Assembly (NCBI GenBank): GCA_021018995.1
Contig: CM037590.1
Location: 80,260,097 to 80,324,096, forward strand
Source: Chloranthus sessilifolius
Taxonomy: Eukaryota > Streptophyta > Magnoliopsida > Chloranthales > Chloranthaceae
DNA length: 64,000 bases
Direction of reading: 5' to 3'
Shown one piece after another: positions 3,785 through 59,835 of this stretch; within the stretch, counting starts at the first letter, position 1, and every line of letters begins with the position of its first letter. The position numbers were made by a program, and so were the translations under genes. The notes under the pieces are model-generated. The model ran no database searches, was not told the origin of the DNA, and saw nothing but the letters and a program-made list of their open reading frames with translations.

Positions 3785-4012
3785 CTGGGCGTATATATTA
3801 CATACGCCCAGTTTATGTACAGTGATTTTCATGAAATCCAGAGGAGATCTGAGAAGATGGGTGTCCGTGGTGGGCCCTACCTATGCTGCGTGTATGCATT
3901 ATATATGCCCAGTCAAATTTGGCTCAAAAATGCCAGGCATATATAATATATATGCCTAACCAAAATGGGCCAAATTTGCTGGGCGTATCTAATGCATACG
4001 CCTGAGCAAAAG
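3785..4012. repeat. Palindrome cluster in TAT LTR, four copies
   Basis: Four copies lie at about 3785-3810, 3886-3912, 3932-3958 and 3979-4005. The consensus across the element is two 10-bp arms, GGCGTATATA and TATATACGCC, around a central A, usually preceded by CTG and followed by TGGC or TGACC. Here the copies are partly decayed, mostly by C-to-T or G-to-A changes at the CpG of the arms. The same cluster recurs at 25528-25752. Confidence 0.9.
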
Positions 4013-4388
4013 TTATGATTTTATGTGAAACTTCAATCGGTCATAACTTTCGAACCATAACTCTAAATTTGGTGATCTTTGGCTTGCTGGAAAGCTGGAG
4101 AAGTCTTCCTTCCAACGGTATGGGGCTCCTCCTTAGCAATGGTCTGTGTAAAATGTTTTATCTCTCCTCCCATCAATTGCTCAGAAGGGTTTAAGTTGAG
4201 TCTGGGAAGGGATCCTAGGGTTTAGGGGTGATCTCTAAGGGTTAGAGGAATGGTTCTAATGGGTTCAGGGTGATTCCTAAAGGTCTGGGTTGGTTCCTAA
4301 GGGTTCAAGGGTGCCATTGGAAGCGCAGGGGTATATCTCTCTCGGAGTACAGACTGATCGGGCCTTGGGCCAAATTTGGGTGTCTACA

Positions 4389-4403
4389 GATGCCCCTCTT
4401 TGG
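4389..4403 (-). other. Polypurine tract of the TAT element
   Basis: On the minus strand this reads CCAAAGAGGGGCATC directly before the 3' LTR start TGTAGACACC. This is the expected primer site for plus-strand synthesis and confirms that the element runs on the minus strand. Confidence 0.85.
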
Positions 4404-6413
4404 TATTCGATCACTAATGATCGGATGCCAAAGACAAGAGACATCCGAAGAGGTCCAAGGCACGTTTGATGGGCCCACCTGGTTCGATCCATGGTGATGG
4501 TGAGTGTACGTAAGCCCTCTCATTTCAGGATATCGTCCGTACCTCAAAGCTAACAGTCCCCAAGCGCATTGCGACATTATTGGGCATAACTGCGATGATC
4601 ACAAAAAGTGTAAGTCTACTAGCCGGGATATCGTCCACTTCCTGAGGGAAATTATAGATTTGTGATGTTGAGTATTAATCTGAACCAGACAGCTCTATGA
4701 AACGGGGTGATCGATCTATGCTTCGGAATCGACGCGAGGTACACAAGGCGAAGGCCTAAACAATGTGTCCAATCCTATGGGGTATTGATAGCTCCATTGG
4801 ATCAGCTGCGGGTGCCCTTACCTAGGTAAGGCTTGGAGTTTTTGGGTGAACCCATCAACCTCGAGGTTGCTTTAGCATGATTTACCTGAGTGGAGCGAAT
4901 ATTGATGTCACAACACTTCTTCGAAATGCATGCCCATTTTCAGAGTAAATTTTTGTGTGTTTTTTTTTTTGAATTTTCTTTTGTTTCGAGGCCTCTAAGC
5001 AAAGCTCAAGGACCTCTGGCAATTTTATTCTTACACAACTCTTTAAGTGGATCAAATGCCAGTTGATACGCTTTAAGAGTGCGTGCACTCTGTTGGGGAT
5101 GGGTGCACCTTGGGGATGTGCCCGTTCCGGTGGCGAGGTGCTCCTGATTCACATGAACCGGAGTGCCTTAACTCGAGATAAAGCTAAAAAAGATTAGGCT
5201 AGGACCAAACATCCATCGAAAGAGATGGTCAATTCTAGCCTCCGTCCCTAATGAAATCACATCTTACTAACTATGCACAGACAGACACCCATCAGGGGCG
5301 ATAAGCAGCAAATAGGCGCGAACGGAAGCCTCGACCCTAAGGTACAATTTACGAGGACAAATGACCATCCTGCGGATACCCAGACACAAGTGCGTACATT
5401 CAACAGGGACATCGTGCCTATACAGGTTTTAAGCCTGTGTAAAAGGAAATAAAAGGGAATGAGCCCTTTGGTCTGTATGTTTGCACATAGTTTGGTTGGT
5501 TGTAATTTCATTTTTGACGGGTCAGTTTCAACTGACAATAGACTTTTCAAATGGTCTGAAGTCAGGTGCACTTTTGGTCAACACAGATCCGAAGGTGGAT
5601 GAACAGAGCCAAAGCTTCGAAGGTGGGGTCAACCTACTCAGGATTTTAACTACATAATAAAAGGTTGTTATTCCGAACCTTCTCCTTCTTTTTCTTTTTC
5701 TTTTTCTCTTTTTTTCTTTTTCTTTTTCTCTTTTGCACATGTCAGCTCGAGACTTTGAGCATGCTCAAACCATTTTTATTTTTGCATGTATCCTTAGGCA
5801 GACCAACTTGCCATGTTGATACACCTCAAGGACTTGCGCATTTCGGTGATAGGTCCTTGGTGTGCCTGTCGGGTCAGGTCCTGACTCCTGGGGATGCGTG
5901 GTCTTGGTCCTTAAACAAATTAGACCCAGCTATCTTGTTTAGGAAAGTAGGTTTAGGAGCGGACCGGGGGTAAACATGGCCAGTATTTCGCCTGCTGGAT
6001 CAGGCATGAGGTGTCCCTGTGTAAATCAGGGTTTGAGAATTTTCGGGTGAACCCGATCATTCTGAATTAAATTAACATGGCTCTCGAAATGGGGCCAACA
6101 GGCGTTGCGACGCTCTTTTGAGAACTAGTGTTGTGTTTCAGGATTTTTCCTTTTTTCTCTCTTTTGTTATTTTATGTGAATCTCTTCTCTCTTTTTTTTT
6201 ATGATTTTATGATTTTATGGAAGCACTCGACGGGCGCTAATAGATCTAGATCTGTTTACTGTAGCACGGTCCCTTAGGGCCAATCGAAGGGAGCTCGAGG
6301 GGCCATTTGGGGATACATGCACCATCGCATGGTGATACGTGGGCTTCTAAGAGGGACTGGGCCTTAATCTAGAGCATACAGAGGGCCTGTCGGGCCATTA
6401 AAGCTAAAAATTG
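4404..6413. other. Non-coding region between TAT 3' LTR and first accessory gene
   Basis: I see no supported gene here. The stretch holds a run of T around 4955-4975, a strong CTTTTT-type pyrimidine tract at 5680-5735, and two copies of a GGATATCGTCC block near 4529 and 4626. It may include the 3' tail of an antisense transcript or the upstream region of the accessory gene. Confidence 0.6.
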
Positions 6414-6540
6414 GCTGGGCGTATATAATATATACGCCTGGTAAATCTTCAGCAAAAATGGCTGGGCGTATATAGTATATATGCTAGCCAAATCTGCGAA
6501 AAAAATGGCCGAGCGTATATATTATATACGCCTGACCAAA
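6414..6540 (+). promoter_or_regulatory. Palindrome cluster upstream of accessory gene 1, three copies
   Basis: Copies lie at about 6416-6441, 6461-6489 and 6508-6537, with a period of 46-47 bp. The first is a perfect match of the two arms GGCGTATATA and TATATACGCC around A. Each copy is followed by AAA-rich spacer (AAATCTTCAGCAAAAATGGC). The cluster sits about 0.9 kb before the predicted start of the PMD gene. I infer a promoter or protein-binding array; no clear TATA box follows. Confidence 0.8.
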
Positions 6541-6786
6541 ATCTGGCAGTTTTAAAACTGCCCGAGCTCGAGCACAAAAGGGGCCCTCTCTTTCAAATTC
6601 TAACTTCTTCCCTCCTCCCTTCTCGAGTTCGGGACAGCCCCCTAGGGTTTTTGCATTTGATATTGCTGGAGTTCTATCACCGGGAGTCGTGTGTGCGGAC
6701 AAAAAAATGTTCATTCTTTACTGATTTTTGGATCTATTTCTTCTCCCATTGAAGGTAATCATCAACCCCTCTTTCATCTTTCTTTT

Positions 6787-7418: not shown

Positions 7419-9751
7419 ATGTCTGGCGACGAAGGGCAGGATCCACAGGAGGGGCCAGAGATGGCCTATGGTCCTCATGGGGAGCAGTTTATCATTTCAT
7501 AGCACTCCTCTCAACCCTGGTATGAAATGCAAGGTGAAGCCGCCCGCATTGGCCTTCTCCATTGTCAGTACACCCACATCTCCAACTTTGGGATCGCTGG
7601 CTAGGTAAATAGATGAGCCCTTTTTTCTTTTCCTTTGATGCTTTTATCATACCATTTTACTCCTATTTGACAGATCCCTTTTGTTTGCAGCCTCTACCAC
7701 ACATCATGTTTCGGGGTGGCTGGTTCGATCTCCAGCGCCTTGTACTCTATCTTCCCCCAGTGGTGAAGGACCTGCTTGCTCAAGCCGGTTTTGGGGATTT
7801 TATTTCCTGCCCCGCTGTGAGGGCCGACACGGCCTATCTGAAGGCTTTGATAGAGCGCTTTCGCCCTGAGACCATGACGTTTCATATGGCCATGGCTGAG
7901 ATGACCCTTACACCCACGGAATGGTCCATGATTACTGGGGTTCGCATTAAAAGGGTGCCAGTGACACCTACCCACACGCCTGATAGGGAGGAGGTGACTC
8001 GGCTGATAGGGGCCTACCCAACCTCTGGGAACGTTCGTGGTTCCGAAGTCAAGTTATCTTGGCTGGCTGATTTGTTCGAGCCTCATGAGTTAGTGGATCT
8101 AGCCCAGCCCGATGGGTCATTTATCTTGAGCCCGAGCGTGCGCAGATGCTAGCCCGTATTTCTTTGCTGTTTCTTTTGGGCAAGACTCTTCTTTCAAATA
8201 CCAGCGGAGGGCAGGTCTCATTGTCCCTTCTCAGCCTTATGGTGAACTGGGACACTATGCATATGTTTGATTGGGGCGGTACTAGTTACGCGGTGCTCAT
8301 GTCTAGCCTGGTGCGAGCCGTACGTAGGGAGTCCAGCTCCGTTGTGGGCTTTTGGCCTGCACTTGAGGTATTTTATCCTTTGGTCTTAGTTTGTCTGACT
8401 TTTCCTTTTTTGGGGCATATCTGTTTTTATCTGCTTGCTTTCTCAGGTTTAGGGGTATCTGCATTTCCAACCTGGTCGCCCTCTGCTTCTCTCCGAAGTT
8501 CCTACGTTCCCCCTTATGAGCAATTGGCACACAAACCGCCGTCGGGACGTAGGCATGAAGCACCTGGAGTTAGGGCTGCGCTCTCAGTTTGATCTGTTGA
8601 TCCCTGAGCAGGTATAACAATTTCTCTCTTTGAAAATTTGATAGCTCTTTTGTGCTGTGGGTTATGACCAAATGTATATATCCCTCCTTTTTTTTCGTTT
8701 CTGAGCAGGTCATCCTTAACCCCTACGTCGGATCTCCCTTCTAGAACCTGGCTGCAGTGGGCCCTTCTCGCATTTTGTTAGATCGACGCATCATTTTCTT
8801 CTATGGGTCCTGGGCTAGGGCCTATTACCTAGGGGAGAGGGTGGTTCATCAGTATTGTCCTCTTTTCGCTGTGCCCCAAGCTCCTTCAGCTGATGTATTG
8901 GCTCCTGAAGGTTCTACCGAAGTGCTTACCACTCGCTTTCTCCATCACGAGGTCCCCATTGATGACCTTCTCTTTCCTGGGGGATATCAGATGTGGTATG
9001 AGTCTCTACCCTATCATTCTCTGCTGCCCCGATTCGTGCCCGGTGCCAACTTTTTGGCATTTGGTGGTCCGCGGTCTCAGGTAATGTTCTTTCCTCTTTC
9101 TATTTAGCAGCCTTCCATATGATTACCTTGATTGCCCAGCTATTTGAAAAAAAATTGTTTCTCTCTGTAGTTTGGACAGGGTGACGATTTAGATGAGGGG
9201 GTTGAGGCAGCTGCACCTGATGAGGCTACCGGTGCTAGACCTTCTGACCATTCCGGTGCTAGTACTTCCGGCAGTTCTCCAGCTAAGGTCCAGGGGACTT
9301 TTAAGAGCTTGGACGATGCCTTTCTGTCGCGTATGTGTGCCGATGTGGCTGAGAAGGTACGCATATCTGCTGAAGCTATTCGATCCCACCCCCTGAGCTG
9401 ATCCCTGGGGTAATCTCTCCCTTGTTACATTGCTCTTCTGTTTTCTTGGATCATGCTGATGACCTGTGTGACTGATACCTCTCTCTTTTTCTTTTTTTTT
9501 TTGCTGTGCAGAATTATGAGTCGACCGTGAACCAAGTCGAATACTACTGCAACATTGTCGGGCTTAGGGAAGTTGAGGTGGTGAGTGAATACTGACCACA
9601 CCTAATCATTTTCTTATTTACTTTTTGCTTGTTTTCCTACCTAACGGCTTCTGGTGTGCTCATGCAGCATGCTCGTGAAAAGGAGTCACGCTCTCTGCTC
9701 GGCCGCATCTCTCAGGCGTGGACTCGGGTGGGGGAGACCCGTACTTTTTAG
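7419..9751 (+). pseudogene. Accessory gene 1: plant mobile domain (PMD) protein, seven exons
   Basis: The protein belongs to the plant mobile domain family (aminotransferase-like PMD, as in MAIN/MAIL1). Predicted exons are 7419-7604, 7691-8367, 8447-8611, 8709-9080, 9171-9356, 9512-9580 and 9668-9751; all introns have GT..AG ends. Visible PMD blocks are MTFHMAEM-like (FHMAMAEMTLTPTEWSMITG) in exon 2, LSWLADLFE, and ISLLFLLGKTLL. The tail encodes SRSLLGRISQAWTRVGETRTF before TAG. It lies antisense to gag-pol, after integrase, as known for TAT extra ORFs. Damage: stop in exon 1 (after GEQFIIS), a stop at the end of exon 1, a frameshift near 8115-8130, a Trp-to-stop at the exon 3 start, and a stop near 8742. 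PMD assignment is firm; the exon borders are predictions. Confidence 0.8.
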
Positions 9752-10204: not shown

Positions 10205-10278
10205 CTTGGCGTATATAATATATACGCCTGGCAAAATATTTAAAATTTTGCCTTGGCGTATATATTATATACGCCTCA
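10205..10278 (+). promoter_or_regulatory. Palindrome pair upstream of accessory gene 2
   Basis: Two copies, at about 10207-10231 and 10253-10277, both keep full arms GGCGTATATA and TATATACGCC (central A in the first, T in the second), 46 bp apart. A TATA-like TTTATAACCC follows at 10301-10310, and the predicted start codon is at 10459. The spacing suggests a promoter with upstream binding sites. Confidence 0.8.
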
Positions 10279-10458
10279 TATAACTGGGCTCGATGGGTTC
10301 TTTATAACCCGAACCTGGCCCTCTTTGCTCCCCTTTTCATCCGGGCTTGGCCTTTTTGCCCCCTTTTTTTCTTTTTTTCTTTTCTCTCTCCTCTTTTCTT
10401 CGAGCGGGTCCGTCGCCCTACATTGATTGATCTTCATAAAGACCAACTTTGTATGTCC

Positions 10459-11976
10459 ATGGACCCGCTTCCCAAGAAAGGCCCAAATTCTCATATGAAG
10501 GCTAGGGCTAGTATACTTCCTTGTTTGGAGCCGAGGCCTAGTTTTTTGCAGAAATGGTATGATAGCTTGGCCGAGGGTGAGCTCGCTGTTCTGGATCGCC
10601 TCGGGTTATCCCGCCTTTCCTCCCTCCTTGCTATTCCTCTGTTGCCCAATCTCTTGCAAGCGACTTTGGCGTCGTGGGACCATAGGGCTCACGTCTTCAG
10701 ATTTGGGTCTAGGGAGCTTACACCAACCTTGGAAGAGCTAGCCTCTATTACTGGCTTGAGGATGCATTGGGGACTTGCAAAAGTAGTGCCCAAACCAGGG
10801 TATGCCAAGGCGGTCCACGCGGTTCTCGATTTGAAAAAGGGTGGGTATGAGAAGGGCTTCGTCGGGGGGCCCACCAGGTGCTCGGTAAAATTCCTGAGAG
10901 AACTTTTCAGCGACTCAAGTCTCCGAAAGTTGCCTATCCAAGATCCTTTCAATGTAAAGGCCTTTGCCCTTTATTTGCTATCGAAAGTTCTCTTCTTTAC
11001 TAGGGGCAAGACATTTTCCCTCGGGTTATGCCATGCCTTGACTGAATTGGAGGGAGGTCATTCACTGGTGCATCTAGTCCTGGCTGAGATGTATCGGGGC
11101 CTGGATGCCTCGGCCTTGGGCTGGGTCGGGATCCTTAGAGGGAGTCCACTCCTTATTCAGATTTGGCTAGGAGAGCATTTGGCTATCATGGGGCCCGTGC
11201 CGAGATTTTTCTTGGTAAGAGGGGATGTGACTCGGGGCTTTCTTACCCGGTGCTTGAGACTGGCCCATGGGAGCATCGAGGAACTGAGGCAATGGCTATC
11301 TGACGCGGGGTTGATCTGGCAACTTCCCTGGATGGACAACACCTTTTCGATTGTCCGCTCTCGGGATTGTGAGGGTATCACGCTTTTGGGGTTGACTGGT
11401 AGTACCTACTATTTTCCATCTCGAGTGCTCCGTCAATTCGGATATACCCAACACATGTCGTGCACTGTGAGGCCACCCTTGTGCTCTCTGATATTCTCTT
11501 GGGGTTCTCTCAGTGACCTAGACCGCATAGTAGCCCTCTAGGAGACCCGCCAATTGGCACACATGTGCAGCTTAGTTCAGGGAGGCATTCTCTCTTCTGA
11601 TTATGAGGTTTGGCTGACATCTGAGGGCTTACCTGTCCCTAACCCAGTTTCGATAGATGCGATAAAGACGGGACTCTGGCCATACAAGGAAACAATGCTC
11701 TGGACTAGGATTGAGTCTCTTTCTGTGGAGAAGCTAGCTTTGACTGAGGCTTTGGGGAAGGAAAGGGCCAGAGCTAAGATGGCGGAGGTGAGAGTTGCTA
11801 CGGCCGAGAGTGAGGTTCTTTGGTTGACTGGGCTTTTGACCGAGTCTCACAGTGCACCTAACGCTTCGCGGAGGCGGCAGAAGAGTCTTCATGGTAGGTG
11901 GTTGTCTGATCGAAATGCCCGTGAGGACTCTCTTCTTACAGAGATCAGTGCTTTGAAGTGTGGTCCCTGTCCCTGA
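10459..11976 (+). pseudogene. Accessory gene 2: PMD-like (DUF7745-type) protein
   Basis: This is a single-exon frame with one amber stop at 11539-11541; the same frame continues to 11976. The start MDPLPKKGPN was chosen over an ATG at 10423 because it follows the leader and begins the conserved part. Recognisable features are a PMD-like FGSRELTPTLEELASITGLR segment (about residues 77-100) and GGHSLVHLVLAEMYRGLDA. After the stop there is a predicted coiled coil (KLALTEALGKERARAKMAEV) at about 11733-11800. I recognise the type of domain that accompanies plant gypsy elements, but its biochemical role is not known. It could be a divergent PMD protein. The lack of introns distinguishes it from accessory gene 1. 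Confidence 0.7.
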
Positions 11977-12249
11977 CCTGTTCCTATACATGCCATAGAA
12001 TATATACACAGAGGGGGGGACTGATGCCCCTTAACAGAGATCTCTTTCCTTTTTTTTTAGGTTATTTCTTCTTTTTTATTTGTGTTGTTTTTTTTTTTAT
12101 ATATACTTGTAAAGAAGGCAGAAGATAGAAAGTGTGTCATGTTGTTATCTTTTTGGGACGTGACACTTCATACATGATGCTTGTAAGAAAAGAAATGAAA
12201 TCTGCTATATATACATATATATTTTTTTTGGTGTTCGAATTTTCTTCCA

Positions 12250-12565
12250 TACGTCTTGCAACGTAAGGGTTTTTATGAAAAAGGAAAATCTATTATCTTT
12301 TTTTGAAATTTTTCTCCTACGCAGTGTGAGGCTTTTTATGGAAAAGAAAAATCTATTATCTTTTTTAAAATTTTCTCCTACACAGTGTGAGGCTTTTTAT
12401 GGAAAAGGAAAATTTATTATCTTTTTTGAAATTTTCTCTTACACAGTGTGAGGCTTTTTATGGAAAAGAAAAATCTATTATCTTTTTTTAAATTTTCTCC
12501 TACACAGTGTGAGGCTTTTTATGGAAAAGGAAAATCTATTATCTTTTTTAAAATTTTCTCCTTTT
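12250..12565. repeat. Tandem repeat, about 61-bp unit, five copies
   Basis: Units contain GTGTGAGGCTTTTTATGG, AAAAGGAAAATCTATTATC and TTTTCTCCTACACA. They begin near 12260, 12322, 12383, 12444 and 12505. Copies are nearly identical apart from T-run length and single changes. Confidence 0.9.
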
Positions 12566-13481
12566 CTCCTCCTTTTTATGATGTCGGTATTTACGAGGCC
12601 AACTGGTGGGTCCTTTTTTGAGCATGGTCGAACCCTGTTTATGAGTCTTCAATTTTTCTTTTTAAAGATGGATAGGTCAGCTTCCCCGAGATTGATTGGT
12701 CTTCTACCTTTACTTTTGGTCATGTCTCAGACGACGTGGTAGAGACGACATACTTGATCGTGATCCAATCCAATTTTTGACATGAGCGGCCCAGCAAAGG
12801 GGAGAAGAGGCTCAAGGGGTCTAGGCTAAAATAGGCGGGCCAGAACAGATCCTCTCCTAATCTCTCTTTTCTTGACATTTTTGCTCACAGTGCCCAAGAC
12901 GAGTTTTCGCCATGCCTGTCATCCCTGTTTTTACCCGTAGCGCCCTTTCGGGTTTTCACCACGTCCATGGGTTCGCTCTCTTACCCCGGTGTCTTTTGAG
13001 TTTTCACAGTCTTTGAACTCAAATTAATTAATAATTTTTATCTTTTTCTTCTTTTTTTTTTTTTAAGAACCAGAAAGCCACGACATGGACATTGATTCCG
13101 TCATAACCGGCTGGATGGGGTTCTGGTGTCGTCTCACGACTCGGCTCATGTTGACTTAACAGATAATATGACTACTTGCGAACCTACAAAGAGGGCTTCC
13201 TTTAGGGTGTAGCTTGGCCATGGGTAGGGTTAGGATTTGAAGGTATGCTGGGTTAAAAGGGTTTCCTTAATACGGCTTCAGTTTTCTCATCATACTTTCT
13301 TCCTTGGGGGCATTTACTATACATGCCCCGTGATTCTTCTACACACACTTTTTTTTTGTTATTCTTTTTCCTCCATTTAAGACAATCTCTTTTTGAAGTT
13401 TTGCTTTTTCGATTTTTTTTGGATTTGATAGTAACTCTATACTCATGTATCTTTCCTCTCTCTTTTTTGGTATATGCACAC

Positions 13482-13533
<52 letters not shown>
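13482..13533. repeat. TA microsatellite
   Basis: About 52 bp of alternating TA with a single ACA interruption. Confidence 0.95.
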
Positions 13534-23359: not shown

Positions 23360-23527
23360 TAGGCGTATGTATTATATACGCCTGACCAAAACTAGCAAAT
23401 TTGGCTGGGCGTATGTATTATATACGCCTGGCTTAAATCTGGGGATTTTGGCTGGGTGTATATATTATATACGCCTGAGTATTTCTGGGGATTTTTTGCC
23501 GGGAGTATTTAATATATACGTCTGGCA
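23360..23527 (-). promoter_or_regulatory. Palindrome cluster in TAT 5' leader, four copies
   Basis: Copies at about 23361-23386, 23405-23432, 23451-23478 and 23498-23526 have a period of 46-47 bp. They share the arms of the LTR and accessory-gene clusters with a few changes (GGCGTATGTA left arm in two copies, GGGTGTATAT in the third). They lie between the LTR and gag. Role unknown; I infer binding sites for the same factor. Confidence 0.85.
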
Positions 23528-24518: not shown

Positions 24519-26122
24519 TGTGCAACCATAGATTCTCTCGAACCCGTCGCAGCGATGCTCTCGCGATGGAATGAAATGTAGAGTCGCTACCTAGAGCTTT
24601 TGGTGACCCGGGAAACCTTTAAATCAATATTTTGTGCACCGAAGTGCTAAATATGACTCTGATTTACCGGTCTTTGCCAAAGGATCTAGGGTAGGGGCTT
24701 CGGTTATCCATCAAGAAGGGTTTAGGCACCCGATCAACCCGCACGTAGTGATCTCTATCTATGGCAAAAATAAACAAACAAATTGGCGGAGCTTCCCCTT
24801 GCCCGAAGAAAATAAGGTCCTACCAAGTTTTGAGCCAAACCGAAATTTCGGCGGCGTAACAGCTTGAATCCTTGGACGGAGGAAACACCAAGAAGGTAGA
24901 GGAAGAGAGGGGTGAGCTGGAGCTCACGGGCCCTTATTGCACTGTGGAAGATCTTTGCTTCGGCATGCTTTCGATGGCTTTATATGGCTTAAACGGTAAG
25001 GGAATAGGTTCTAATGCTAGGATTTGATAGATAGGAAGTGCAGGATGAAGCCAGGGACAAAGCTTGACTAAAAAAGGGGTGATCTAATGGTTGAAATGGG
25101 TTGAAAGGGGTGAACTAAGCATGCTGGAATTCTGGTTGAAGAATGCAAAATAATATATATTTTTCTCTCACTAGGGCTCTCTCTCTTAAGCTTAGCTTTC
25201 AACCTTAATTTTTCAATCCTTTTGGGAAGAGGGGGTGCCTCTCTATTTATAGAGAAGAGGTGGGTTAGAGGATTACTTAAGAGCTAATTGGTTTAGCAAT
25301 TAGGTAATCCTCCATCTAAGGTTTTCTAGGTTTTTAGGGTCCTAGGGGTTTGGGGAACTGGTTTCAATGGCAGATGATGGGGTGAGACCATGAGTGACTC
25401 AAGGGTTGCATATAAGCTCAAAGGGGGTGCAACCAATCTTAAGACACCCACCTCAACCAAGGGGATTGTCAAAAGGTCAAACCAGATGGAGGAAATTTGA
25501 GCATTTGATGACGGTTACTATAGCTAAGCTTGGCGTATATATTACATACGCCCAATTTATGTACATTGATTTTCATGAAAACCAGAGGAGACCTGAGAAG
25601 GTGGGTGTCCGTGGTGGGCCCTACCTATGTTAGGCGTATGTATTATATACACCCAACCAAATTTGGCCCAAAAATCCCAAGTGTATATAATATATACACC
25701 TGACCAAAATGGGGCCAAATTTGCTGGGCGTATCTAATACATACGCCTGAGCAAAAGTTATGATTTTATGTGAAACTTCAATTGGCCATAACTTTCGAAC
25801 CATAACTCCAAATTGGGTAATCTTTGGCTTGCTGGAAAGCTGGAGAAGTCCTCCTTCCAACGGTATGGGGTTCCTCCTTAGAAATGGTTAATATAAAATT
25901 TTGTAGCTCTCCTCCCATCAATTGCTCAGAAGGGTTTAAGTTGAGTCTGGGAAGGGATCCTAGGGTTTAGGGGTGATTAAGGGAATGGTTCTAATGGGTT
26001 CAGGGTGATTCCTAAAGGTTTGGGTTGGTTCTTAAGGGTTCAAGGTGCCATCGGAAGCACAGGGGTATATCTCTCTCGGAGTACAGACTGATCAGGCCTT
26101 GGGCCGAATTTGGGTGTCTACA
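24519..26122 (-). repeat. 5' LTR of the TAT element
   Basis: A 1604-bp LTR homologous to 2776-4388. TATA box at 25243-25252 (minus strand CTATAAATAG) and palindrome cluster at 25528-25752. TG/CA ends and an adjacent GAGGA duplication confirm the border. Confidence 0.95.
25528..25752. repeat. Palindrome cluster in TAT 5' LTR, four copies
   Basis: Copies at about 25529-25555, 25632-25658, 25678-25704 and 25726-25752 correspond one to one with those in the other LTR. Substitutions differ between LTRs but the dyad remains readable in every copy. Confidence 0.9.
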
Positions 26123-26127
26123 GAGGA
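26123..26127. repeat. Target site duplication GAGGA (right copy)
   Basis: Partner of 2771-2775; Athila RT resumes directly after it. Confidence 0.95.
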
Positions 26128-31302: not shown

Positions 31303-31517
31303 GGTCGATTAATCGACCTTACACTCGATTAATCGAGGAAAGTGACGGAGTCTGGCACAAAAAGTACCTTTTTGGTTGAAAAATTATAGGAGGTCGATTA
31401 ATCGACCTTACACTCGATTAATCGAGGTAAGCAAAGAAGTTTGAAACAGAAGTGACTCTGTAGTGCAGATTTTTAGGAGGGTCGATGCATCGACCCTATA
31501 AGGTCAATTAATCGACC
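31303..31517 (+). promoter_or_regulatory. Athila LTR palindrome cluster, six sites
   Basis: Perfect 16-bp GGTCGATTAATCGACC at 31303-31318 and 31392-31407; CTCGATTAATCGAG at 31324-31337 and 31412-31425; GGGTCGATGCATCGACCC at 31479-31496; GGTCAATTAATCGACC at 31502-31517. They occur as pairs with a repeat of about 88 bp. The last site is 40 bp before the TATA-like TATTTAAA. Confidence 0.9.
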
Positions 31518-35369: not shown

Positions 35370-35645
35370 TCTCAAAAGTCGCTCACGCGACCTTGAGTCT
35401 CGCCCGCGTGAGATGAACATCAGAGTAGGAGTGAAAATCACAAGTGAGCAGTCGCTCGTGCGACTGAGTCTGCCCATGAGAAGTCACTTGCGTGACCTTG
35501 GAACTCGCGTGCACGACTATCTCAGGCTGTAAGAATGAGAGGAATTAGGAGAACTCAATCCCTCAAGTGGGCTCGTGCAACGGAGATGTGCCATGTGACT
35601 CGCTCGCGTGACCTTAGAACTCGCGCGCGACTGAGCAACTTTGGG
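35370..35645 (+). promoter_or_regulatory. Tekay palindrome cluster in 5' LTR
   Basis: Sites of the type AGTCGCTCGCGCGACT (6-bp arms AGTCGC and GCGACT around TCGC) are repeated at about 35378, 35393, 35448, 35482, 35505, 35596 and 35622 with variable decay. The same array is at 56980-57245 and a shorter one at 53990-54150. Confidence 0.8.
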
Positions 35646-37004: not shown

Positions 37005-40000
37005 TGTTAAGCACTGATTTTTGCCACTTTCTACCCCTTTAAACCCTGCTTTTGCTAGGACCTAGAGTGTTTAATAATTGTTTTTAGTGATGTTTTGCAG
37101 CAAGGAAGGATTTACATCCTTAGTGCAGTTTTCCATTAAAAAATGTCATTTAGAGGAATTTTGCAATCCAGCAACTACTTTGACATATGCTAGTAGTGAC
37201 TTCTAAAATGCAACGATGGTCCTATGGGTATAGCAATGCAACTGAAACGAAGTAAGCATTTGAGCTAAAGAAGAGCTTCAGCAGTGGACCTTGTTCCCAT
37301 TAAATGGCTGGGTCAGCACGCCTAGTAAATGGAAGTGCACTTAGTTTCAGCATCATAAGCCACCTGTCAAGTTGCACCAGTAGTCCATCGACCTCTCGAG
37401 TGGATACTCTTCATCTCCTTTGCAGTTGCACCCTTCAACTTGTCAAACCAATAGTAGAAAAATTTGCTTGAGCAGCTCCTGCAGCTGCACTTGCCGGAAA
37501 ATGAAGGAGCAGTTGGAATATACAGCAGCCATGTGTGCAGCAGGATGGGGACTCAAGCCAAGCAGCAATGGGACCTGTCAAGAGCCGAGGTGCGGGAGCA
37601 GTAGCTTGCCGATTGAGACCCTGATCCTATCGAGTGCTGGTGCAGGATCGATTGAATGGTTTATTGGCAGCAGCAGCTCCCTATCATTAGATCCTATTGA
37701 TTAGCTCAGCAAATAGCTTCAGATCCTCACGAGACCTTGTGCTCCATCTCCCATGCATCCTCTCGAAGCTCCCCTTTCAGCACCTATCGACTAACAGGTT
37801 ACACCCTTCACTAAACCTCTCGATCAGCAGGCTATCATGTAAAACCAAACCTGTCGAAAAGCAAGTAGAAGCAGCACATGGAACCTATTGAAATGCTGGA
37901 ATGATCCTGTCGATCGGTTTAGGCAGCTGAAACTTCATCCTGTCGAATGGTTCTTTGCTCAAAACAGTAACCTATCGAATTGCAGCAGCTATCCAACCAT
38001 CGAATACTACAAAACTGCAGCCTGATCCTATCGAAGTGGAGCTCCTCACCAGCTACAGCCTATCAAATAGTGCAGCTAAAACCCCCAGCCAACCTGTCGA
38101 AGAATGTAGCCTTCAAAGCTTTAAACCTGTCGAGCACTCCCAGCTCCCAAACATTCATCCTCTCGACAACTTGAGTTGCAGCCCTATCCTCCAACCTGTT
38201 GACTAGTTAAAACTCCAATCTATCGACAGCATCTCCATGCAAAGCCTTCAATCCTATCGAAAGGATCCTCCCCAGCCATCTTCAACCTATCGATTGGTTC
38301 AATTTAAAGCAGCTGCAGCTCCACCTTCAAACCACTCGAATACTACAAACAACAGCAGCCTTCTAGCAAACCTGCATGCAAGTTTCAACTGCAATCCAGC
38401 CCATAAAGCCCGTTGACCGCCGAGATATCTCAATCCGTTGAAATGCCCAACCTCCGGCTTTCTCCAATTGGCTTATGTGCAGCCAAGATCCTATCCAACG
38501 GTCGATTTCTCAGAAAGAACCTCAAATAAGGCGTCTTATGTGCAGCTGCATATGCATTTATATATATATGCTTCTTGAAACCAGACCATAGCAGCCTTTT
38601 ACCGCTTAAATATCTCAACCTGTCTCGAAGCCCAACCTCCAGCTTACCCCAAACCTGTCGAGATGCAGTCAAGATCCTATCCAACCATCGAATTCTCGAA
38701 AAATCCCTCACACCTGGCGTCTTAAACACAGCTGTAGTTATATATATATATATACTTCTTGTTTCAGCCTCCATTGCAACCTGTCGAAGGGTTCTTTGGA
38801 CTGCAAATTAGAACCTATTTTTTGGGCAGCAAGGATGATTATTGTGTGGGCGACCACTTGAGGTGTGCAACTGGAAAAAGGGGCAGCTTGGGTCCACTTT
38901 GCGGACAGCAAGTATAGAGTTGAGTAGCTGAGTATTTGTAGCTAAACAAGGGCAAATTGGGAACTCCAATGCACAAAAAATGTTGCACATGGGTAGGAGC
39001 TAATTTTTGGCGGGAATGCAACTGAAGCACAATAGAAGGGATCCATCTCTGCTCTCTGATTGGCTGAAACCCAAGGCACAAGGATCAATGCATATGTGTA
39101 AATACCTATCTTTTTGTCGTTTTTCTTCAGCAAGGAACGTAGGAACAAAGGAATAGCCTGAGTTCTCCTTAGCTCATTTAGGTTTAGTTTAGGTTTTTTT
39201 TTTTTTTTTTCTCTTCCCCCTTCTCTCTCTAATCCAGCATGCTGGATTAGATCTAGATAGTAGCTCAGATCTAGTTTGTAATTGTAATTTCGATATGAAG
39301 AAATCTGGATCAATGCACAGACTACAGATTTGGAAACAAGTTTATTGTAAGTGGTTTTGTTTGAAGCAATAAATTGTCAATTTTAAAGCTTAGTTAGATC
39401 TAAAGATCTTGTGGTCCCATTAGATTCTCGATCGGATTTGTGTAGAGGAGTTTGTTAATCAGCTCACCCACTTAACTGGTAGATCTCTTGATGACCATCT
39501 GATTTCCTTGGGTTTGACATGTCTGTAATTTCCTGAGTCTGTGACCTTGGAATTGTAGCATCTATGATAGTTTTAATTGTTCTGATTGATGCTTTAGATT
39601 TGGAGGAGATCCCTAGGATGGTCTGTGACCATTAAAGTGGACAGATCATAACCTTAAGATTAGTCCAAGCTCGGGCTCCAATTGGATTCGTCTGCTGCAA
39701 ATCCATGGATTCGATAAAGTCTATAGGTTGATCTGTGACCATTAAAGTAGACAAATCATAGCCTTAAGACCAAGTGGATCTTGTGATTTGGAGTGGAGCC
39801 TTCTACCCTGCAGCTATGCTTATAGCCAGTTGAGGGATGGTTGCATATCCTCAGATCTTGATCTATTTTGTAATAAAAACTAGGTCCTGGCTGCCTATTT
39901 CTCATAATTTGATCTTTATTTGTCCATCCATCTTCCTCCATCATTTAGTTTAGTTTCATTTCAGTTTTGTAGAATTAGATCTAGTGACAGAAAAACTCTC

Positions 40001-43399: not shown

Positions 43400-45740
43400 T
43401 GTTAAGTAGTGAAAAATACCATTTTTCACCTCCTAACCTGACCTTTGATGGACCCTTGAGCTGACTAATAAGGTGTTTTAAGTGTGTTTTGTAGATAAGT
43501 AATAAATTACAACTTACTGCAGAAACTCATTTAAAAGAGCCCAAAAAGCATTATGCTACCCAATTGGAAAGGCTTGAGACCAAGTCCAGCTGTAAGGAAG
43601 AAAGATTGAACCTACTAAGGGGTTGTTGAGTGTTGAACAAAGGAAGAACAGCACACCCAAGATGTGTGCCAATTGGGGAAGCACTAAAAATATGCTATCG
43701 AGAGGTTCCATGAAGCTGTCGAGAGCTCCACAACACCTGTTGAGAAGTTCTGAGAGCAAGGAATGAAGCTGTCGACAGGTACTGAGTTGAAAAGATGAAG
43801 ATCTCGAGAGGTTGCACTACCTACTGAGAGGTTGGAAGTACAGACATGGATCCTGTCGAGAGGATACTTCAAGGTACAGATGAAGTCGAGAGGTTCTAGA
43901 TACTTATCGCGAGGTACAACTGAACCTGTCGAGCAGTGTAAGATAACCTATTGACAACTTACCTGAAGTAATGTTCATTCTCACGAGGATTGAGCCAACC
44001 TGTTCAGCACTTCACTGAAGATTGTATAACCCGTAGAAAGGTTGAGTATAACCTGTCAAGAGGATGAGTGTGGAACTAGGCAGAACGAAGAAATAAGCCT
44101 TCAATCCTATCAACAAGTTCAAATCAACCTCTCGAGATGTTCTCCCAAGCTGTCGACAGGATCTTCATTAACCTATCGAGATGCGTCCAAACCTATCGAG
44201 AGCTACTTTAATCCTATCAAGAAGTCTGCAAAGCTATCAAAAGCCAATGCAACCTATTGACGTGAACATAAAGTAGATCCAGAACCTGTCGAGAGGTTCC
44301 TTGAACCTCTCGACACTCATTTTGGCAACTTCTCAGCGTGTTTCTTCAACAACTGTGACTTCCAGAATTCTGTGCACGAATTCCAAAGCACTTCAACAAC
44401 TCTTGGGGGTATTTTTGGCACATAATTGGGCACGAGTGGAAACCCTAACTACTTCATGTATATTTGCTAGTTGAGAGCCAATGGGAGAGAACTTTTAGAA
44501 GAGAAATCAGCCACATCAGTATAACACTCTGATTGGCTAAAACGGATCTGAGGGCAAAGGAGGAGAGTATAAAAGCTTGAAGAAAATACAGAACAACCAT
44601 CTAGAGTTTGAGAGAACCAGAGCTTAGTGTGAGATCCATTTTTCCCTCTAAATTTTCCTTCCTTCTTCCTACTTCTCCCATTCTCTCTTTAGCCAATCAT
44701 GAGTGGCTAAACTCTTTTCAGTAGTTAGGGTGAGGTCTTGAGCTGTAAATTGAGAGATTCAGAGGCTTGTAAGAGATTTTATATTGCACAGATTGCAGAT
44801 CTGGGCACAATAGTATTATAAGTTTGTAATATAATTATAGATTTTAAAGGTGATTCTAATCTACATTTCACTTTTTCGTATTTGATTTTCCTGGATTGGA
44901 TACTCCTGCGGATGCTAGCCAGAAATGGAGAGCTGGTAGCCTGGCATCTACAGCATCTGCAATAGTTTTCCTGTCTCAATCAAGATCAATAAATTGGAGT
45001 AATCTCGGGGATGAACTATATTCAATAGAAGGGTTAGGACTGTATCAATTAGAAGGGCAGAGCCTAACCTCTGGATTGCCTTGATCCATTGGTGGAGATT
45101 GGATTCTTATACCTCACCTCTGTCGGAAGAACTTGGGTAGATCAATAAGTTTGAATAATCACGGGGATGAACTGTATCTAGTAGAAGGGCAGATCATAAA
45201 CTTAGGACTGTATCCAGTAGAAGGGCAGATCCTAACCACAGGATTGCTTTGATCCATTGGTGGATTCGGATGAACCTGGGAAGCTTGGAGCCAGAAAAGA
45301 GGATCATTGCAAATCAATTCTCTGCATTGCCTTTGATTCCTTTGATTTTCAGTGAGAGACCAATATCCCTTGCTGTTGTTCTCACCCTTTTGAATTTTCA
45401 TCTCTTCTATACCTCCCCTTATCTCTGTGTTTGATTAGATCTGGATCAATAGCATTTATCTTTTGTAGTCTGAAGTTAAAGTGACAAAACCATAAAACCT
45501 CTCCTCTTTCCTGCTTTAGCAGTTTAAATTAGGATAGAGTTCCAGATCTACAATAGATCTGGAGATTTACCATCCTTTAGAACACATTTCCCTGTGGACA
45601 TACCCTTATTTATCAAAACTTGCAGCAACAGCCCTGATTCTTGCAGGACTACTTGCTTGCCTGGATTTAACCTTGCTGTAATTTGTGCAGTTAATCTATT
45701 GTTTTAATCATATAATAATTGCAAGGCGGGCAGCACAATA
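43400..45740 (+). mobile_element. Family D solo LTR in Tekay gag
   Basis: Starts TGTTAAGTAGTG; ends CAGCACAATA, where other copies end in ACA (one C-to-T change). Duplication GGAGG on both sides. Contains motif cluster 43690-44320, inverted CCAAT (GATTGGC, 44530-44537), TATA box TATAAAA at 44568-44574. A repeated unit with GAAGGGCAGATC/AGGACTGTATCCAGTAG lies at 45025-45240. About 2.34 kb. Confidence 0.88.
43690..44320 (+). promoter_or_regulatory. Motif array in family D solo LTR
   Basis: Sites include CTATCGAGAGGTTC (43693), CTGTCGACAGG (43770, 44152), CCTGTCGAGAGG (43855, 44287) and CCTCTCGAC (44305). They stop about 250 bp before the TATA box at 44568. Confidence 0.85.
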
Positions 45741-45745
45741 GGAGG

Positions 45746-49379: not shown

Positions 49380-50370
49380 GCCTAGTACTCAACCTATCAA
49401 CTTGTGTACCAGTTGGAGCTAAAACTTGTCGAGTTTGGCTTCAGTACCTATCGAATGGAAGGAGCCTTTATCTCCATCCTGTTGACTTGAAGCAACCTTG
49501 CATCCTCTCGAATTGAAGATGTATTGAACCAGTTGATTGGTTAAATTCATCCTCTCAAGAAGATCATTCCAAGCAGCCCACCAACCTATCGAATAGTGCA
49601 GCTCCCAAGCTATCCTGTCGAGTGGATCTTCAAGGCTTCAGCAAACCTGTCGAAGTGCTCCAGCCATCTGCTCGAACAGCACTCATCCACTTTAGTCAAC
49701 CTGTCGACTAGTCACTCTCATCCTCTCGAATAGAACTCTGCAATTCTGTCGACTTCTGCCTAGAACAACTGCCATCAACCTCTTGAAGTGCACTTAAACC
49801 CCCAGCCATCCTATCGAGAAGAACATTCTCCTAGCTCTTCCAACCTCTCGAACTTTCCAAGTACCCAACCTGTCAAGCAGATGAATTACATTTAAACCTA
49901 TCGATAGCAGTCTCCCCCATCTTGTCGAGCTACACTTCAGCAAACCTCTCAAGTAGATGTTGTTGTATTGTGAATCTAAAAACCATCCTGTCGACTGGTT
50001 CAAACCAACCCCTCGAGATAGGTTTAGCTGGATACTTAAACCTCTCAAATTGCACTACTCAACCTCACGAATTAACACCTGAAGCTGCTGTCTTTTGAAC
50101 CTTCAGCCACAAACCTGTCGAGAAGACCATCCATCCTCTCGAATTCATCTATGAACCCCACGAAGAACTACCTGAAGCTGCTATGGGTTTGGACCCGCAT
50201 CAGCAAACTCTCGAACAAGGCTCTCATCCTCTCGAATCCAGCCAGCAAACCTCACGAGATGTACCTGAAGTTAATGTTGTATAAACCTGCAAACTAACTT
50301 GTCAAGCTATCATCTATCTGCTGCAGTTTAAACTTCATCAAGCCTCAAATATCTTCAGCAAATTCCTCGA
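49380..50370 (+). promoter_or_regulatory. Motif array in second family D solo LTR
   Basis: More than 20 sites of the type CCTGTCGA, CCTATCGA, CCTCTCGA, often followed by A and G (CCTATCGAGAAG, CCTGTCGACTGG). Irregular spacing of 20-60 bp. Ends about 460 bp before the TATA box. Confidence 0.8.
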
Positions 50371-53989: not shown

Positions 53990-54160
53990 ATTGATGAACT
54001 CGCACACATGAGACTTAAGTCGCTTGCACGACAGCTTCAGAAAGCCACACGAGAAACCTAGACACCACAGTTGCTCACGTGACTAGGTTAGGCGCCAGGT
54101 ATGACTATAAGTCGCTCGCGCGACTCATATGTCGTTCGTGCTACTGTCGCGATATATAAA
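53990..54160 (+). promoter_or_regulatory. Palindrome cluster and TATA box before Tekay accessory gene
   Basis: Sites AAGTCGCTTGCACGAC (54018), GTTGCTCACGTGAC (54069), AAGTCGCTCGCGCGACT (54108) and GTCGTTCGTGCTAC (54131) match the LTR motif AGTCGC-TCGC-GCGACT. TATATAAA follows at 54153-54160, about 235 bp before the ATG. It looks like a separate promoter. Confidence 0.8.
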
Positions 54161-54390: not shown

Positions 54391-55559
54391 ATGGGTCCCA
54401 AGAAAATGTTGGCATCTAAGCCACCACCATCCAAGCGTCAAAAGGTGCCTCCTCAATCAATTGTGAGGAGTCCACCCTCGAATTGGTGGAATTTGAAGCG
54501 ATTAGAGGTCGAATGGTTCGTCGATAAGGATTTGTTCACGAACCAAGAGACAACCACATGGACCTTAATCTATTTGAATGCCGCGGGAATGACGTCACTC
54601 CTTGAGCCATTCCACGAATATTGCTTCTGTAGGCTTGTACGCCTATTTTACCAAAATTTAAAAATGAGCATCGATAACATCGAGTTTGTAACCGAGATAG
54701 ATGGTAACAAATTTCAGTTCGACCTAGACGACATCGCTACATCAATGAGATGCTCATCAAGGTATGTGGAAGGTGGGACTTTGGAATCTCCGAATGTTGG
54801 AAACATATCTTTCGAAGCTATCATTGCCGACATGACTAACGGACAAAATGGATCAGGTTTGTCAGTGAGGAGGGCACAATTGTCCGACTACATGTGGGCT
54901 CTTGATATCATTTTTAGGAAGAACCTTTTTCCTATGGGTCATGAGCAGGAGAGGAGGGATGCTTATCTCCAAGCCTTGTACTTGGCCTACAAGGGAAATG
55001 GTACTTTGCCATGGCCTTGGTGAGTGAAGGGATCGTATATGCAAAGAACAATGCACGGGAGGGTCAGATCAAAGTAACCCTCAAACATTTTCCGTATGCT
55101 CGGTTGATCATGAGAATGATCAAGCAGTATGTGAATGAAGAGACCGATGGCGAATACAATATTTCGCCAGCTGAGCCCAAATACACTACCAACACCCAAC
55201 AGTATAGATTCAATGATTTTAAAGTTGGTTTGGATAGTTTAAGGACGAGCGTGAAACGCCGTCAAAACTAAGAACTTGCGCAACGAGCGCAGCAACAACA
55301 GCCACACCCTAAGCCTGATCAGGCAGCTCAGTGTTTGGTTCCACCACACCAGATTCCAGTTCAGCCACCGATTCCTCCATACGGTGGTGTGGAATTCACA
55401 TTTGAGCTTTTTCGAATGATGGATTTGCAAGATATAGCGCTCAAGAGGATCGAGCAGCAGAATGAGCAGACCACACGCCAGGTCTATTACCATGAGGCCA
55501 TGCTGAGCGATGTGATGCTCGAGGTATGTACCAGAGGCCTCTACTTCCAGAGCTGGTGA
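54391..55559 (+). pseudogene. Tekay accessory gene (putative plant transposon protein type)
   Basis: Extra gene after the chromodomain. MGPKKMLASKPPPSKRQK has a basic, NLS-like N-terminus. The middle segment with MWALDIIFRKNLFPMGHE, DAYLQALYLAYKGNG and VSEGIVYAKNNAREG resembles the putative plant transposon protein domain seen in gypsy accessory ORFs; I am not certain of the family. A one-base loss near 55008 moves the frame and a stop lies at 55269-55271; the frame then continues to LQDIALKRIEQQNEQTTRQV and stops at 55557-55559. No chromatin or catalytic motif is recognised. I infer a nuclear role from the basic tail. Confidence 0.65.
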
Positions 55560-56979: not shown

Positions 56980-57245
56980 GAAAGTCGCTCGCGTGACCTT
57001 GAGTCTCGCTCACGCGACTTGAAGTCACTCCCGCAAGATGAGCTTCAGAATAGGCATGAAAATCACATGTGCACAGTCGCTCGCGCAACTGAGTCTGCCC
57101 ATGAGAAGTCACTTGCACGACCTTGATACTCGCCCGCACGACTATCTTAGGCTGTGAGAAAGAGGGGAATTAGGAGAGCTCAGTCGCTCGAGTGGGCTCG
57201 CGCGACTGATATGTGGCACATGACTCGCTCGGAAGACCTTGAAAC
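56980..57245 (+). promoter_or_regulatory. Tekay palindrome cluster in 3' LTR
   Basis: AAAGTCGCTCGCGTGACC, GTCTCGCTCACGCGACTTG, AGTCGCTCGCGCAACT and related, same order as 35370-35645. No TATA box seen close by. Confidence 0.8.
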
Positions 57246-58024: not shown

Positions 58025-58029
58025 ATATG
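58025..58029. repeat. Target site duplication ATATG (left)
   Basis: Partner 60613-60617. Flanks the solo LTR. Confidence 0.9.
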
Positions 58030-58645
58030 TGTAGCGACCCTAGATCTCTTAACCTCTGAATTGTAAGATCTTAGACCATACCTTCGTATCATAAACCATA
58101 GAATCATAATAAGGCGATAAAAGCACCTTAAACAGTGGAAGATAAAATTTCTTTAAAACATTAATTAATCAAAATAAAACTTATAATAATGTTTTTATTC
58201 TAATAACAAGTCCAACATGATTAAAGCATAAACTGTTTTGATAAAATACTAACTGATCAATGTCTCATTTATTTAAAATCACTAATAATAACTAGAAAGG
58301 AAAATAGCTAATTAGGCCACGAAGCCATCATCGTCATTCTATCCGGTTTCTTGAGCACCACGTGCCGTCTCATCGCCATAGATCCATACATTGCCCTTGG
58401 TGATACCTATCTCATATGGTCACCCACATCAACAAGGGGTGTAAGTTTACACTTGTATGGATCAGACATGCAATCTATTGAAGCATAATATATCAGTCAT
58501 AGCCATATAAATATTTTGATATATTTCATGTATGTGTGTATGTGGCATGTATAATCTCACTAAGCTGAAATGAACTGAGCATAAACATATATATCAATAT
58601 TACATGAATGCATCATATCATTTAATTTCATCTTTCTTGTCATTT

Positions 58646-58996
58646 AATGCGCGTTAGACTCCGTCCCGCTCAAGACGTTGGGTCTTAATCATACTCATCA
58701 CATGTTTAGTTAGACTCCGTCATGCTCAAGACGTTGGGTCTAATGAATCATATCATTTATTACATGTCAAACTCCGTCCCGCTCAAGACGTTAGGCTTAA
58801 TCATGCTCATCATACTCTTGTTTAGTTAGACTCCATCTTACACAAGATGTTGGGTCTAATTCCTTCTTAGACTCCATCATGTACAAGATGTTGGGTCTAA
58901 TGCTCTTTAATCGTGTTTAGTTAGACTCCATCAAGCACCAAATGTTGGGCCTAATACATTCTTAGACTCCACCGGGTACAAGATGTTGGGTCTAAT
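58646..58996 (-). repeat. Stem-loop array in family E solo LTR
   Basis: About eight units TTAGACTCCGTC ... GACGTTGGGTCTAA with arms TTAGACTC and GGGTCTAA around a 14-16 nt middle (CCGCTCAA or related). Middle parts vary, arms are kept. Confidence 0.85.
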
Positions 58997-59283
58997 GCTC
59001 GTTAATCATGGCTTGATATTTCATCGTATTTTACGTGTCCTGATTGTACATTATATAGATCTTCATGAAACATGTAAAGTGTATGAGAGTGATATCATAA
59101 TACATAAGCATTTAAGTGCATTTAATCATGGTACGCAAATATTAAAGTGTACACAATCATGGTGCATAAATATTACAGTGCATATCATCCGATCATGGTG
59201 TATAAACATTAACATTTAATGAGAGTGTTGTGAGAAGAACTGGAATATAGAACTTAACTACGCAAATAACATTCATTGATTTC

Positions 59284-59835
59284 AAATTCAGGTTCAATCG
59301 ATTGACATCCAATCGTCAATCGATTGACATAATTCTATGCATATCATAATACATAAGGCTCAATCGATTGACTCCTCTGAATCAATCGATTGACATAATT
59401 TTGTGCCTTTTCCCAAAATAACATTATTTATCAGTATCCGTTTATGCTCAATCGATCGATTTCTCATAATCAATCGATTGAATCAAATCCATACATTTTC
59501 TAAAAAGAATGTCCTTTATCAGGGTCTGTCAGGCTCAATCGATTGGCTTCTCTAAATTAATCGATTGAATCAAATCCGTGCATTTTCTTAAAATAATATC
59601 ATTTATTAGTTTCTATCAGGCTCAATCGATTAACTCCTCTGAATCAATCGATTGACATAATTCTGTGTATTTTCTTTCAAAGCAATATCATTTAATCCCC
59701 AATTGATTGACATCCAATTGTCAATTGATTGACATAATTCTGTGTATTTTTTCAAAAATAAACTCATTTATCAATACCTACTTTAATATTCATTCTCAAT
59801 CGATTGACATCCAATCGTCAATTGATTGACATAAT
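59284..59835 (-). promoter_or_regulatory. Palindrome cluster of family E
   Basis: TCAATCGATTGA, a perfect 12-bp palindrome, or one-base variants occurs about 13 times (e.g. 59295, 59320, 59352, 59382, 59451, 59480, 59532, 59620, 59650, 59800). Copies come in pairs separated by CATCCAATCG or TCTCTGAA. Confidence 0.88.

Follow-up and report, generated by a model that had tools for sequence, protein, structure and literature searches.

The window analysed here, a 64,000-nucleotide stretch of Chloranthus sessilifolius DNA from one place on contig C7 of a 2.17-Gb genome, bears plant-type elements, among them five families of long terminal repeat (LTR) retrotransposons, TAT, Athila, Tekay, D and E, with clusters of short palindromes. 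The first three names are those of the original prediction; TAT-type and Tekay-like here denote elements similar to the window's own. The observation of clustered, family-specific palindromes is confirmed, with corrections, and its interpretation as self-recognition is, as a whole, partly supported. The DNA itself shows where the palindromes lie, how they cluster and are spaced, which scaffold and code they form in TAT-type elements and that the motif agrees from one control region of an element to another. A shared layout, combined with a family-specific sequence that matches between an element's own control regions, points to an address label in the DNA that each family reads for itself, as has been demonstrated for certain plant DNA transposons. 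We consider it somewhat better than an even bet, with a probability of roughly 0.55, that the palindromes are family-specific target sites of DNA-binding proteins encoded by the elements, which would, in the manner of VANC proteins, keep their own copies expressed. The claim of a same layout with different sequences holds well beyond the window, through a TAT scaffold with family-specific inner four nucleotides and a match between LTR and accessory promoter in three Tekay-like elements.

TAT-type sites fit the single scaffold GGCG-4nt-TANTA-4nt-CGCC (GGCGnnnnTANTAnnnnCGCC), which has 34,945 exact matches in the genome; the control pattern, the scaffold read backwards, has 3. Two further TAT-type elements were sampled, one on L023 and one on L025/L026, with plant mobile domain (PMD) stretches 39–68% and 34–57% identical to those of the window, respectively. 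Among these three homologous elements, the outer scaffold and a spacing of 47–48 bp are kept and the inner four nucleotides differ, being mostly TATA in the window, CATG/TGTG on L023 and CAAC on L026 and L024. Four kinds of place carry the sites both in the element of the window and in that of L024–L026: the LTR, the leader and the regions before each of two accessory genes, PMD1 and PMD2. In the L024–L026 element, the PMD1 site is single, with the last PMD1 match about 1.5 kb downstream of it, and the leader on L024 is assigned to the element by its order and a shared LTR end. With sites selected by scaffold and not by code, the arms agree at 0.87 between places of one element and at 0.32 between elements, a difference reached by only 2 of 20,000 label shuffles (0.88 versus 0.34 with one L023 site put in register). 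The shuffles reaching it rise to 11 of 20,000 when the second LTR of the window is omitted, 9 without the L024 leader, 14 without both and 98 when the single PMD1-upstream site is left out as well.

Among the first 50 listed scaffold sites, all on contig C1, the two arms are identical in 30, where 5,000 re-pairings of the arms average 15.7 and never exceed 24, and they agree in at least three of four nucleotides in 38 (re-paired mean 24.4). Grouped by distance only, the same sites agree at 0.77 within groups when more than 500 bp apart (n = 48) and at 0.60 between groups (n = 1,159). Twenty short stretches around listed sites, picked to span several codes, contain 59 sites with up to three mismatches, two of which (CCAG/ACTT) look like chance; the spacing is 46–49 or 94–97 bp in 28 of 39 cases, and places grouped by distance only agree at 0.69 (n = 13) within groups against 0.51 between groups (n = 177), a result matched in 15 of 5,000 shuffles.

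The Tekay-like elements show a comparable pattern with other sequences. In all three elements where tblastn found the accessory gene, the LTR motif recurs in the accessory promoter, and the motif differs each time: the promoters have 4 hits of AGTCGC-4nt-GCGACT in the window, 21 of TTCGATTAATCGAA on L016/L017 and 4 of ATTCGAC-N-GTCGAAT on L008/L009. When each promoter is searched with all three motifs (in the order window, L016, L008), the counts are 4, 0, 0 for the window, 0, 21, 1 for L016 and 0, 0, 4 for L008, leaving five of six off-diagonal cells at zero; the LTR copies of L016 and L011 hold one hit each of the window's motif. A TATA-like word follows the array after 28–30 bp in the window and after 10–12 bp on L016, where the start codon is at 9566. 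Over the matched stretches, the accessory proteins of L008 and L016 share 34–38% identity with that of the window, and the L008 homologue matches Transposase_32 at 1.1e-5, which, like the match of the window's protein, is below the cut-off; a protein search with the latter gave 70 candidates, none at E <= 0.001. A fourth Tekay-like element, on L011/L012, has LTR arrays of TCGCTCGAGCGA and a Tekay-like integrase, and gave no accessory-protein match. Plant LTRs are known to carry repeated host-factor sites in clusters, and the arrays could be transcription factor sites of the host, recruited by LTR promoters, with different factors serving different families. The clusters upstream of TATA-like words in several cases would suit this; yet host factors give no reason for inner nucleotides that differ between TAT elements and are alike across the places of each, and internal accessory genes, too, are preceded by the motif, and we consider recruitment of host factors unlikely.

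Palindrome arrays are not peculiar to the window. A motif-independent scan covered 20 pieces of 10 kb outside it, ten beside the window and five from each of two other contigs, with an array defined as at least four like palindromes: 14 pieces hold at least one array, and of the 21 arrays found, 16 have at least six palindromes, whereas ten shuffles of the same pieces gave 0–2 arrays of four and none of six. Chance palindromes in shuffled sequence thus fail to explain the clusters, outside the window as within it. Including the window, there are 27 arrays, and of their 185 neighbour spacings below 120 bp, 98 are 19–23 bp and 25 are 40–46 bp. Neighbours about two helical turns apart suggest co-operative binding on one face of the helix. 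Since control words occur within these arrays too, they give the same peak, and the spacing is therefore a property of the arrays and not an independent proof. Core-versus-flank information, which favoured the motif in all 27 arrays, was discarded as evidence, the arrays having been selected by core recurrence.

A less specific origin could be imagined for such arrays, as by-products of tandem duplication, DNA or RNA hairpins or insertion preference, with the palindromes expanding or converting together and no dedicated reader. Some arrays do lie within longer repeats, one of them (L019 522–644) in a long self-inverted stretch, and LTR retrotransposons reportedly often insert into palindromes, going by a reference title alone. 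Conservation within a family also fits: the motif had been expected to be better conserved than its spacers, and in 22 copies of the window's TAT LTR stretch (20 of 40 scored places and the window's two) it was not, with 0.896 for the motif, 0.910 for the spacers and 0.884 for the 5' flank, or 0.932, 0.914 and 0.892 once CpG columns are removed. At least three sites within four mismatches are kept in 20 of the 22 copies, four of them in 17; the exceptions are L035 with one site and L039 with two. As most copies of the family are probably dead and drifting, the comparison says little about the active lineage, though it is still not passed. Against a by-product stand the TAT sites that lie kilobases apart, share a code and differ from those of other elements, the excess of identical arms over re-paired ones and the recurrence of seeds, at least six times for 156 of 769 palindromic seeds and for 51 of 6,215 others, seeds within one array not being independent. 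We regard an origin without a specific reader as very improbable.

The idea of a private clustered motif for each family held in part: all five motifs cluster, and in the window their full-length matches stay in their own family, but a 12-bp core, TCGATTAATCGA, is common to families outside the window. Matches were counted with mismatch limits set for each motif, controlled by 20 shuffled windows for TAT and by shuffle means and maxima for D and E. All 16 sites within three mismatches of the TAT motif GGCGTATATANTATATACGCC lie in the TAT element, and the shuffled windows have none; the five clusters hold 3, 3, 2, 4 and 4 copies, in line with the two to four predicted. Athila has two exact copies (31303 and 31392) and five with up to two mismatches, one of these outside the LTR at 29075. 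In Tekay, AGTCGC-4nt-GCGACT is exact at two sites (35450 and 54110), and 13 strand-counted matches within three mismatches of AGTCGCTCGCGCGACT, at 10 positions, all fall within Tekay parts. The D motif CCTNTCGANAGG is exact in only three copies and present in 24 with up to one mismatch (shuffle mean 1.35, maximum 5), distributed over three LTR copies and their surroundings, and the half-site CCTNTCGA occurs 51 times, 50 of them in D parts and the remaining one in TAT (shuffle mean 4.15, maximum 11); the more than 20 copies claimed for D are thus found when degenerate copies from all D parts are pooled, and not among exact ones. E has seven exact copies and 13 with up to one mismatch (shuffle mean 0.25, maximum 2). 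The three D copies are 84–87% identical in motif columns and 74–76% in other array columns, although aligning such arrays favours the motif. The description of the five families as unrelated was too strong, as Athila and D are 79% alike over 207 bp near the LTR border.

A generic test, in which any perfect dyad with 6-bp arms was compared region by region with 200 shuffles, exceeded the shuffles in E (20 versus 5.5; 0 of 200), the Athila LTR (2 of 200) and the first TAT promoter (3 of 200), and did not in D, Tekay and the other four TAT stretches. Being weak in most regions, it indicates that the specific repeated motif and not general dyad density carries the signal; we rejected dyad density as evidence, since D, Tekay and most TAT stretches would have gone unnoticed by it. 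Clusters had been placed upstream of the LTR TATA box in Athila, TAT and D. A TATA-like word follows the cluster after 281 bp in the TAT LTRs, 40 bp in Athila, 248 bp in D copy 2 and 40 and 592 bp in D copy 3; the stretches searched for D copy 1 and for the Tekay LTR contain no such word. The motifs of TAT and Tekay also stand upstream of accessory genes, as predicted, before both PMD genes in the former and before the one accessory gene in the latter.

The TAT-type element of the window has its integrase on the minus strand (rve, 7.9e-12) and two PMD genes on the plus strand. Each LTR carries GGCGTATATANTATATACGCC, as do the 5' leader and the region upstream of each PMD gene; sites within a cluster are mostly 46–47 bp apart, and 10453–23000 has none. 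PMD1 matches the plant mobile domain PF10536 at 6.4e-12 (7613–8152), and at 8089–8592 PMD and DUF1985 match overlapping residues, both below the cut-off; PMD2 matches PF10536 at 1.4e-15 and DUF7745 at 3.2e-7 on 10219–11541. A structure predicted for PMD2 from its single sequence was set aside (mean predicted local distance difference test score 34.7), and six weak matches in a PDB search (E 0.01–0.02) are regarded as chance. As in TAT/Retand elements, a long region between pol and the 3' LTR holds open reading frames (ORFs) antisense to gag-pol. Among recently active Retand clusters, 97% contain a TRP28 antisense ORF; in the window, three plus-strand ORFs were scanned and matched PMD, DUF1985 and DUF7745 and not TRP28 (PF04195), and shorter ORFs were not scanned. 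We therefore claim TAT type only and not Retand membership.

According to the reading that we prefer, the palindromes would be operators for dimeric DNA-binding proteins encoded by the elements themselves, read by the two PMD proteins in TAT-type elements and by the Transposase_32-like accessory protein in Tekay-like elements. The arrays would set neighbours on the same helix face (about 21 bp) or at a fixed 47–48 bp, and the protein would bind those in the LTR, leader and accessory promoter and keep the copies of its family expressed, most likely by countering silencing, as VANC proteins do for VANDAL elements. Joint change of the protein and all its target sites would create a private label for each family, and families that have no accessory gene, perhaps D and E, would use the protein of another. 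Motif and protein both differ among the three TAT and the three Tekay-like elements, which are too few for a correlation.

The closest known likeness, here as below taken from the available passages of the papers cited, is to the VANC anti-silencing system of VANDAL21 and VANDAL6, Mu-like transposons of Arabidopsis, where dense, short family-specific motifs in non-coding parts change in concert with an element-encoded protein; VANC proteins contain DUF1985 and bind arrayed short motifs in the non-coding parts of their own family (PMC5735166). In our elements, too, family-specific short motifs are arrayed in non-coding regions, with the shared core TCGATTAATCGA as an exception, and an accessory protein accompanies the transposition proteins in TAT (PMD) and Tekay-like elements (Transposase_32-like). 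The differences are that ours are LTR retrotransposons, that the motifs are palindromic and regularly spaced, with a conserved scaffold around a variable four-nucleotide code in TAT, and that the accessory proteins are PMD or Transposase_32-like. As the protein family is not shown to be that of VANC, and as we infer self-recognition, the binding protein, its origin in the element and any anti-silencing or activating effect from sequence, we do not claim membership of the VANC system.

Other systems share single features. TnpA of En/Spm, a DNA transposon and as such different from our elements, binds arrayed subterminal motifs that are 12 bp long and not palindromic. It has been named beside VANC as an element-encoded protein that activates its element with demethylation (PMC10398659). 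Plant Ty3/gypsy elements (Retand, Tat, Athila and Tekay) are known to have accessory genes between pol and the 3' LTR, antisense in Retand, and these extra ORFs have been suggested to bind DNA and regulate (PMC11963269); one from Athila resembles Transposase_32 (PMC11728184). The accessory genes of our TAT element are PMD genes and not TRP28 as in Retand, and that of Tekay, a 5' ORF in sunflower (PMC11728184), lies here behind the integrase. The host proteins MAIN and MAIL1 have the same plant mobile domain, and a 'DOWN' promoter motif is linked to genes down in their mutants (PMC7156037), but these proteins belong to the host and act in silencing. Palindromic target arrays in LTR retrotransposons are not described in the available passages of PMC11963269, PMC5735166, PMC10398659, PMC5418596, PMC7156037, PMC12844716, PMC11728184 and PMC12859917, a set that does not cover the subscription literature; the word palindrome is absent from PMC5735166, PMC7156037 and PMC12844716 and occurs twice in PMC11963269, in a reference title on insertion into palindromes. 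Whether the extra ORFs of LTR elements act like VANC is left open by PMC12844716, and PMC12859917 mentions unpublished work on the structure of VANC with its target.

The accessory protein might, on the other hand, bind the palindromes as an autorepressor and limit its own element. Autoregulation would account equally well for sites in control regions, among them the control regions of the accessory genes, and MAIN and MAIL1 act in silencing (PMC5418596, PMC7156037); VANC/VANDAL21, the known system with the same layout, instead removes silencing (PMC5735166), and autorepression appears to us quite unlikely. Activation, anti-silencing and autorepression cannot be told apart by sequence alone.

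Several observations weigh against target sites of element-encoded, VANC-like proteins. The core TCGATTAATCGA is common to Athila-type and Tekay-like LTRs with differing outer bases, being present in the Athila-type, L016/L017 and L013 LTRs with GG, mostly AT/TT and AA, respectively. The D copies are mostly degenerate, mainly half-sites, and accessory genes for Athila, D and E were not identified, though no systematic search was made. Mixed arms such as CAAC/CATG occur in several TAT elements, frequently in some of them, and arrays of CAAC and of TATA are found together in one group of sites within 18.5 kb (C1:61217207-61235632); the label is thus at times blurred. The conservation observed for the motif among the 22 TAT copies is reached by 1,314 of 2,000 circular shifts. 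The cluster upstream of PMD1 is about 0.9 kb from the start codon. A search for TATA-like words gave none for PMD1 or PMD2, for the counterparts of PMD2 on L023 and L026 or for the accessory gene of L008. A profile comparison (hhalign) of PMD, DUF1985 and Transposase_32, built from few sequences, gave no support for homology, and the VANC motifs are reported to be arrayed in one orientation, with no use of the word palindrome in that paper (PMC5735166).

An element outside the LTR families may belong to the same picture. L019 (C1:50030001-50040000) has a MULE transposase on the minus strand (PF10551, 1.8e-18), a piece of Peptidase_C48, an Ulp1-type protease, above the cut-off and a DUF1985 match below it, and palindrome arrays with a 22-bp phase occupy several stretches between coding pieces, in and around a plus-strand gene. 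This gene looks VANC-like, and the whole looks like a VANC/VANDAL-type element. We would tentatively entertain a wider possibility, that at least two LTR lineages (TAT-type and Tekay-like) and Mu-like transposons each run a private palindromic label read by an element-encoded protein, with the TAT arm code read by PMDs, mixed arms by PMD heterodimers, and host PMD silencers related to, perhaps domesticated from, such a reader. The function of plant Ty3/gypsy accessory genes is open in the literature passages, and the arrays give a concrete and cheap handle on it. If self-recognition by these elements is true, a VANC-like strategy would be common among plant transposons and not a Mu-like peculiarity, this genome would hold a readable DNA code with tens of thousands of sites, and a DNA-binding function could be given to a domain common to the host silencing proteins MAIN and MAIL1.

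Table. Palindrome clusters, LTRs and accessory genes in the window.
Feature	Position	Strand	Remarks
TAT-type other LTR	2776..4390	-	92% identical to 24519-26124
TAT palindromes in LTR	3788..4002		sites 3788, 3936, 3982
TAT palindromes upstream of first plus-strand accessory gene	6418..6532		sites 6418, 6465, 6512
First accessory gene, PMD1	7419..9750	+	antisense to gag-pol; apparently several exons in different frames; both ends approximate
TAT palindromes upstream of second accessory gene	10208..10275		sites 10208, 10255
Second accessory gene, PMD2	10453..11538	+	open to stop at 11539; frame continues behind stop
TAT palindromes in 5' leader	23362..23522		sites 23362, 23408, 23455, 23502; 46-47 bp apart
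TAT-type LTR (5' LTR in element direction)	24519..26124	-	92% identical to 2776-4390
TAT palindromes in LTR	25532..25747		sites 25532, 25633, 25680, 25727
Athila-type LTR palindromes (GGTCGATTAATCGACC and variants)	31303..31517		pairs 20-22 bp apart in ~89-bp units
Tekay LTR palindromes, left copy	35377..35613		
D array, LTR copy 1 (CCTNTCGANAGG, mostly half-sites)	37392..38791		
D array, LTR copy 2	43694..44313		
D array, LTR copy 3	49447..50235		
Tekay palindromes upstream of accessory gene	54018..54125		TATA-like word at 54153-54155
Tekay accessory gene, first open stretch	54391..55020	+	PF20167 Transposase_32, 0.017, below cut-off
Tekay LTR palindromes, right copy	56983..57190		
E array, TCAATCGATTGA	59294..59829		pairs spaced 22 bp

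Some further palindromes and repeats deserve mention. Scaffold sites with unequal arms, CAAC with CATG, TGTG or CATC, are found on L057–L062 (C1:48140550-48142950, C1:35533200-35549950 and C1:61217000-61219350); unequal-arm TAT sites are possibly sites for hetero-dimers or hybrids of two codes. On L025, a self-inverted insert (8322–8624) beside a TAT-type pol has six copies of GATTGT-4nt-ACAATC, a motif also present on the Mu-like L019. This array was considered as the label of the third TAT element and rejected, as it lies in the separate insert and the scaffold-fitting sites are the CAAC ones on L026 and L024. A repeat pair of about 3.8 kb and 93% identity, probably LTRs, spans L014 3899–7671 and L015 6267–9998 and carries arrays of TCGACCGGTCGA; two ORFs scanned on L015 gave no Pfam match. 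In the window, TCGATTAATCGA-like words stand at 29075–29110, between the Athila integrase and its LTR and outside the LTR array. The TAT element has five 61-bp tandem repeats behind its second PMD gene (12239–12604) and, just inside its 5' LTR, four to five tandem repeats of 67–70 bp with AGTCAATTGACT-like palindromes (24047–24388). Finally, nine copies of CTTTTCGAAAAG, spaced 20–21, 31–32 or 41 bp, lie at L013 2988–3215, and their layout is similar to that of the D motif CCTNTCGANAGG, both being N4-TCGA-N4 with different outer bases.

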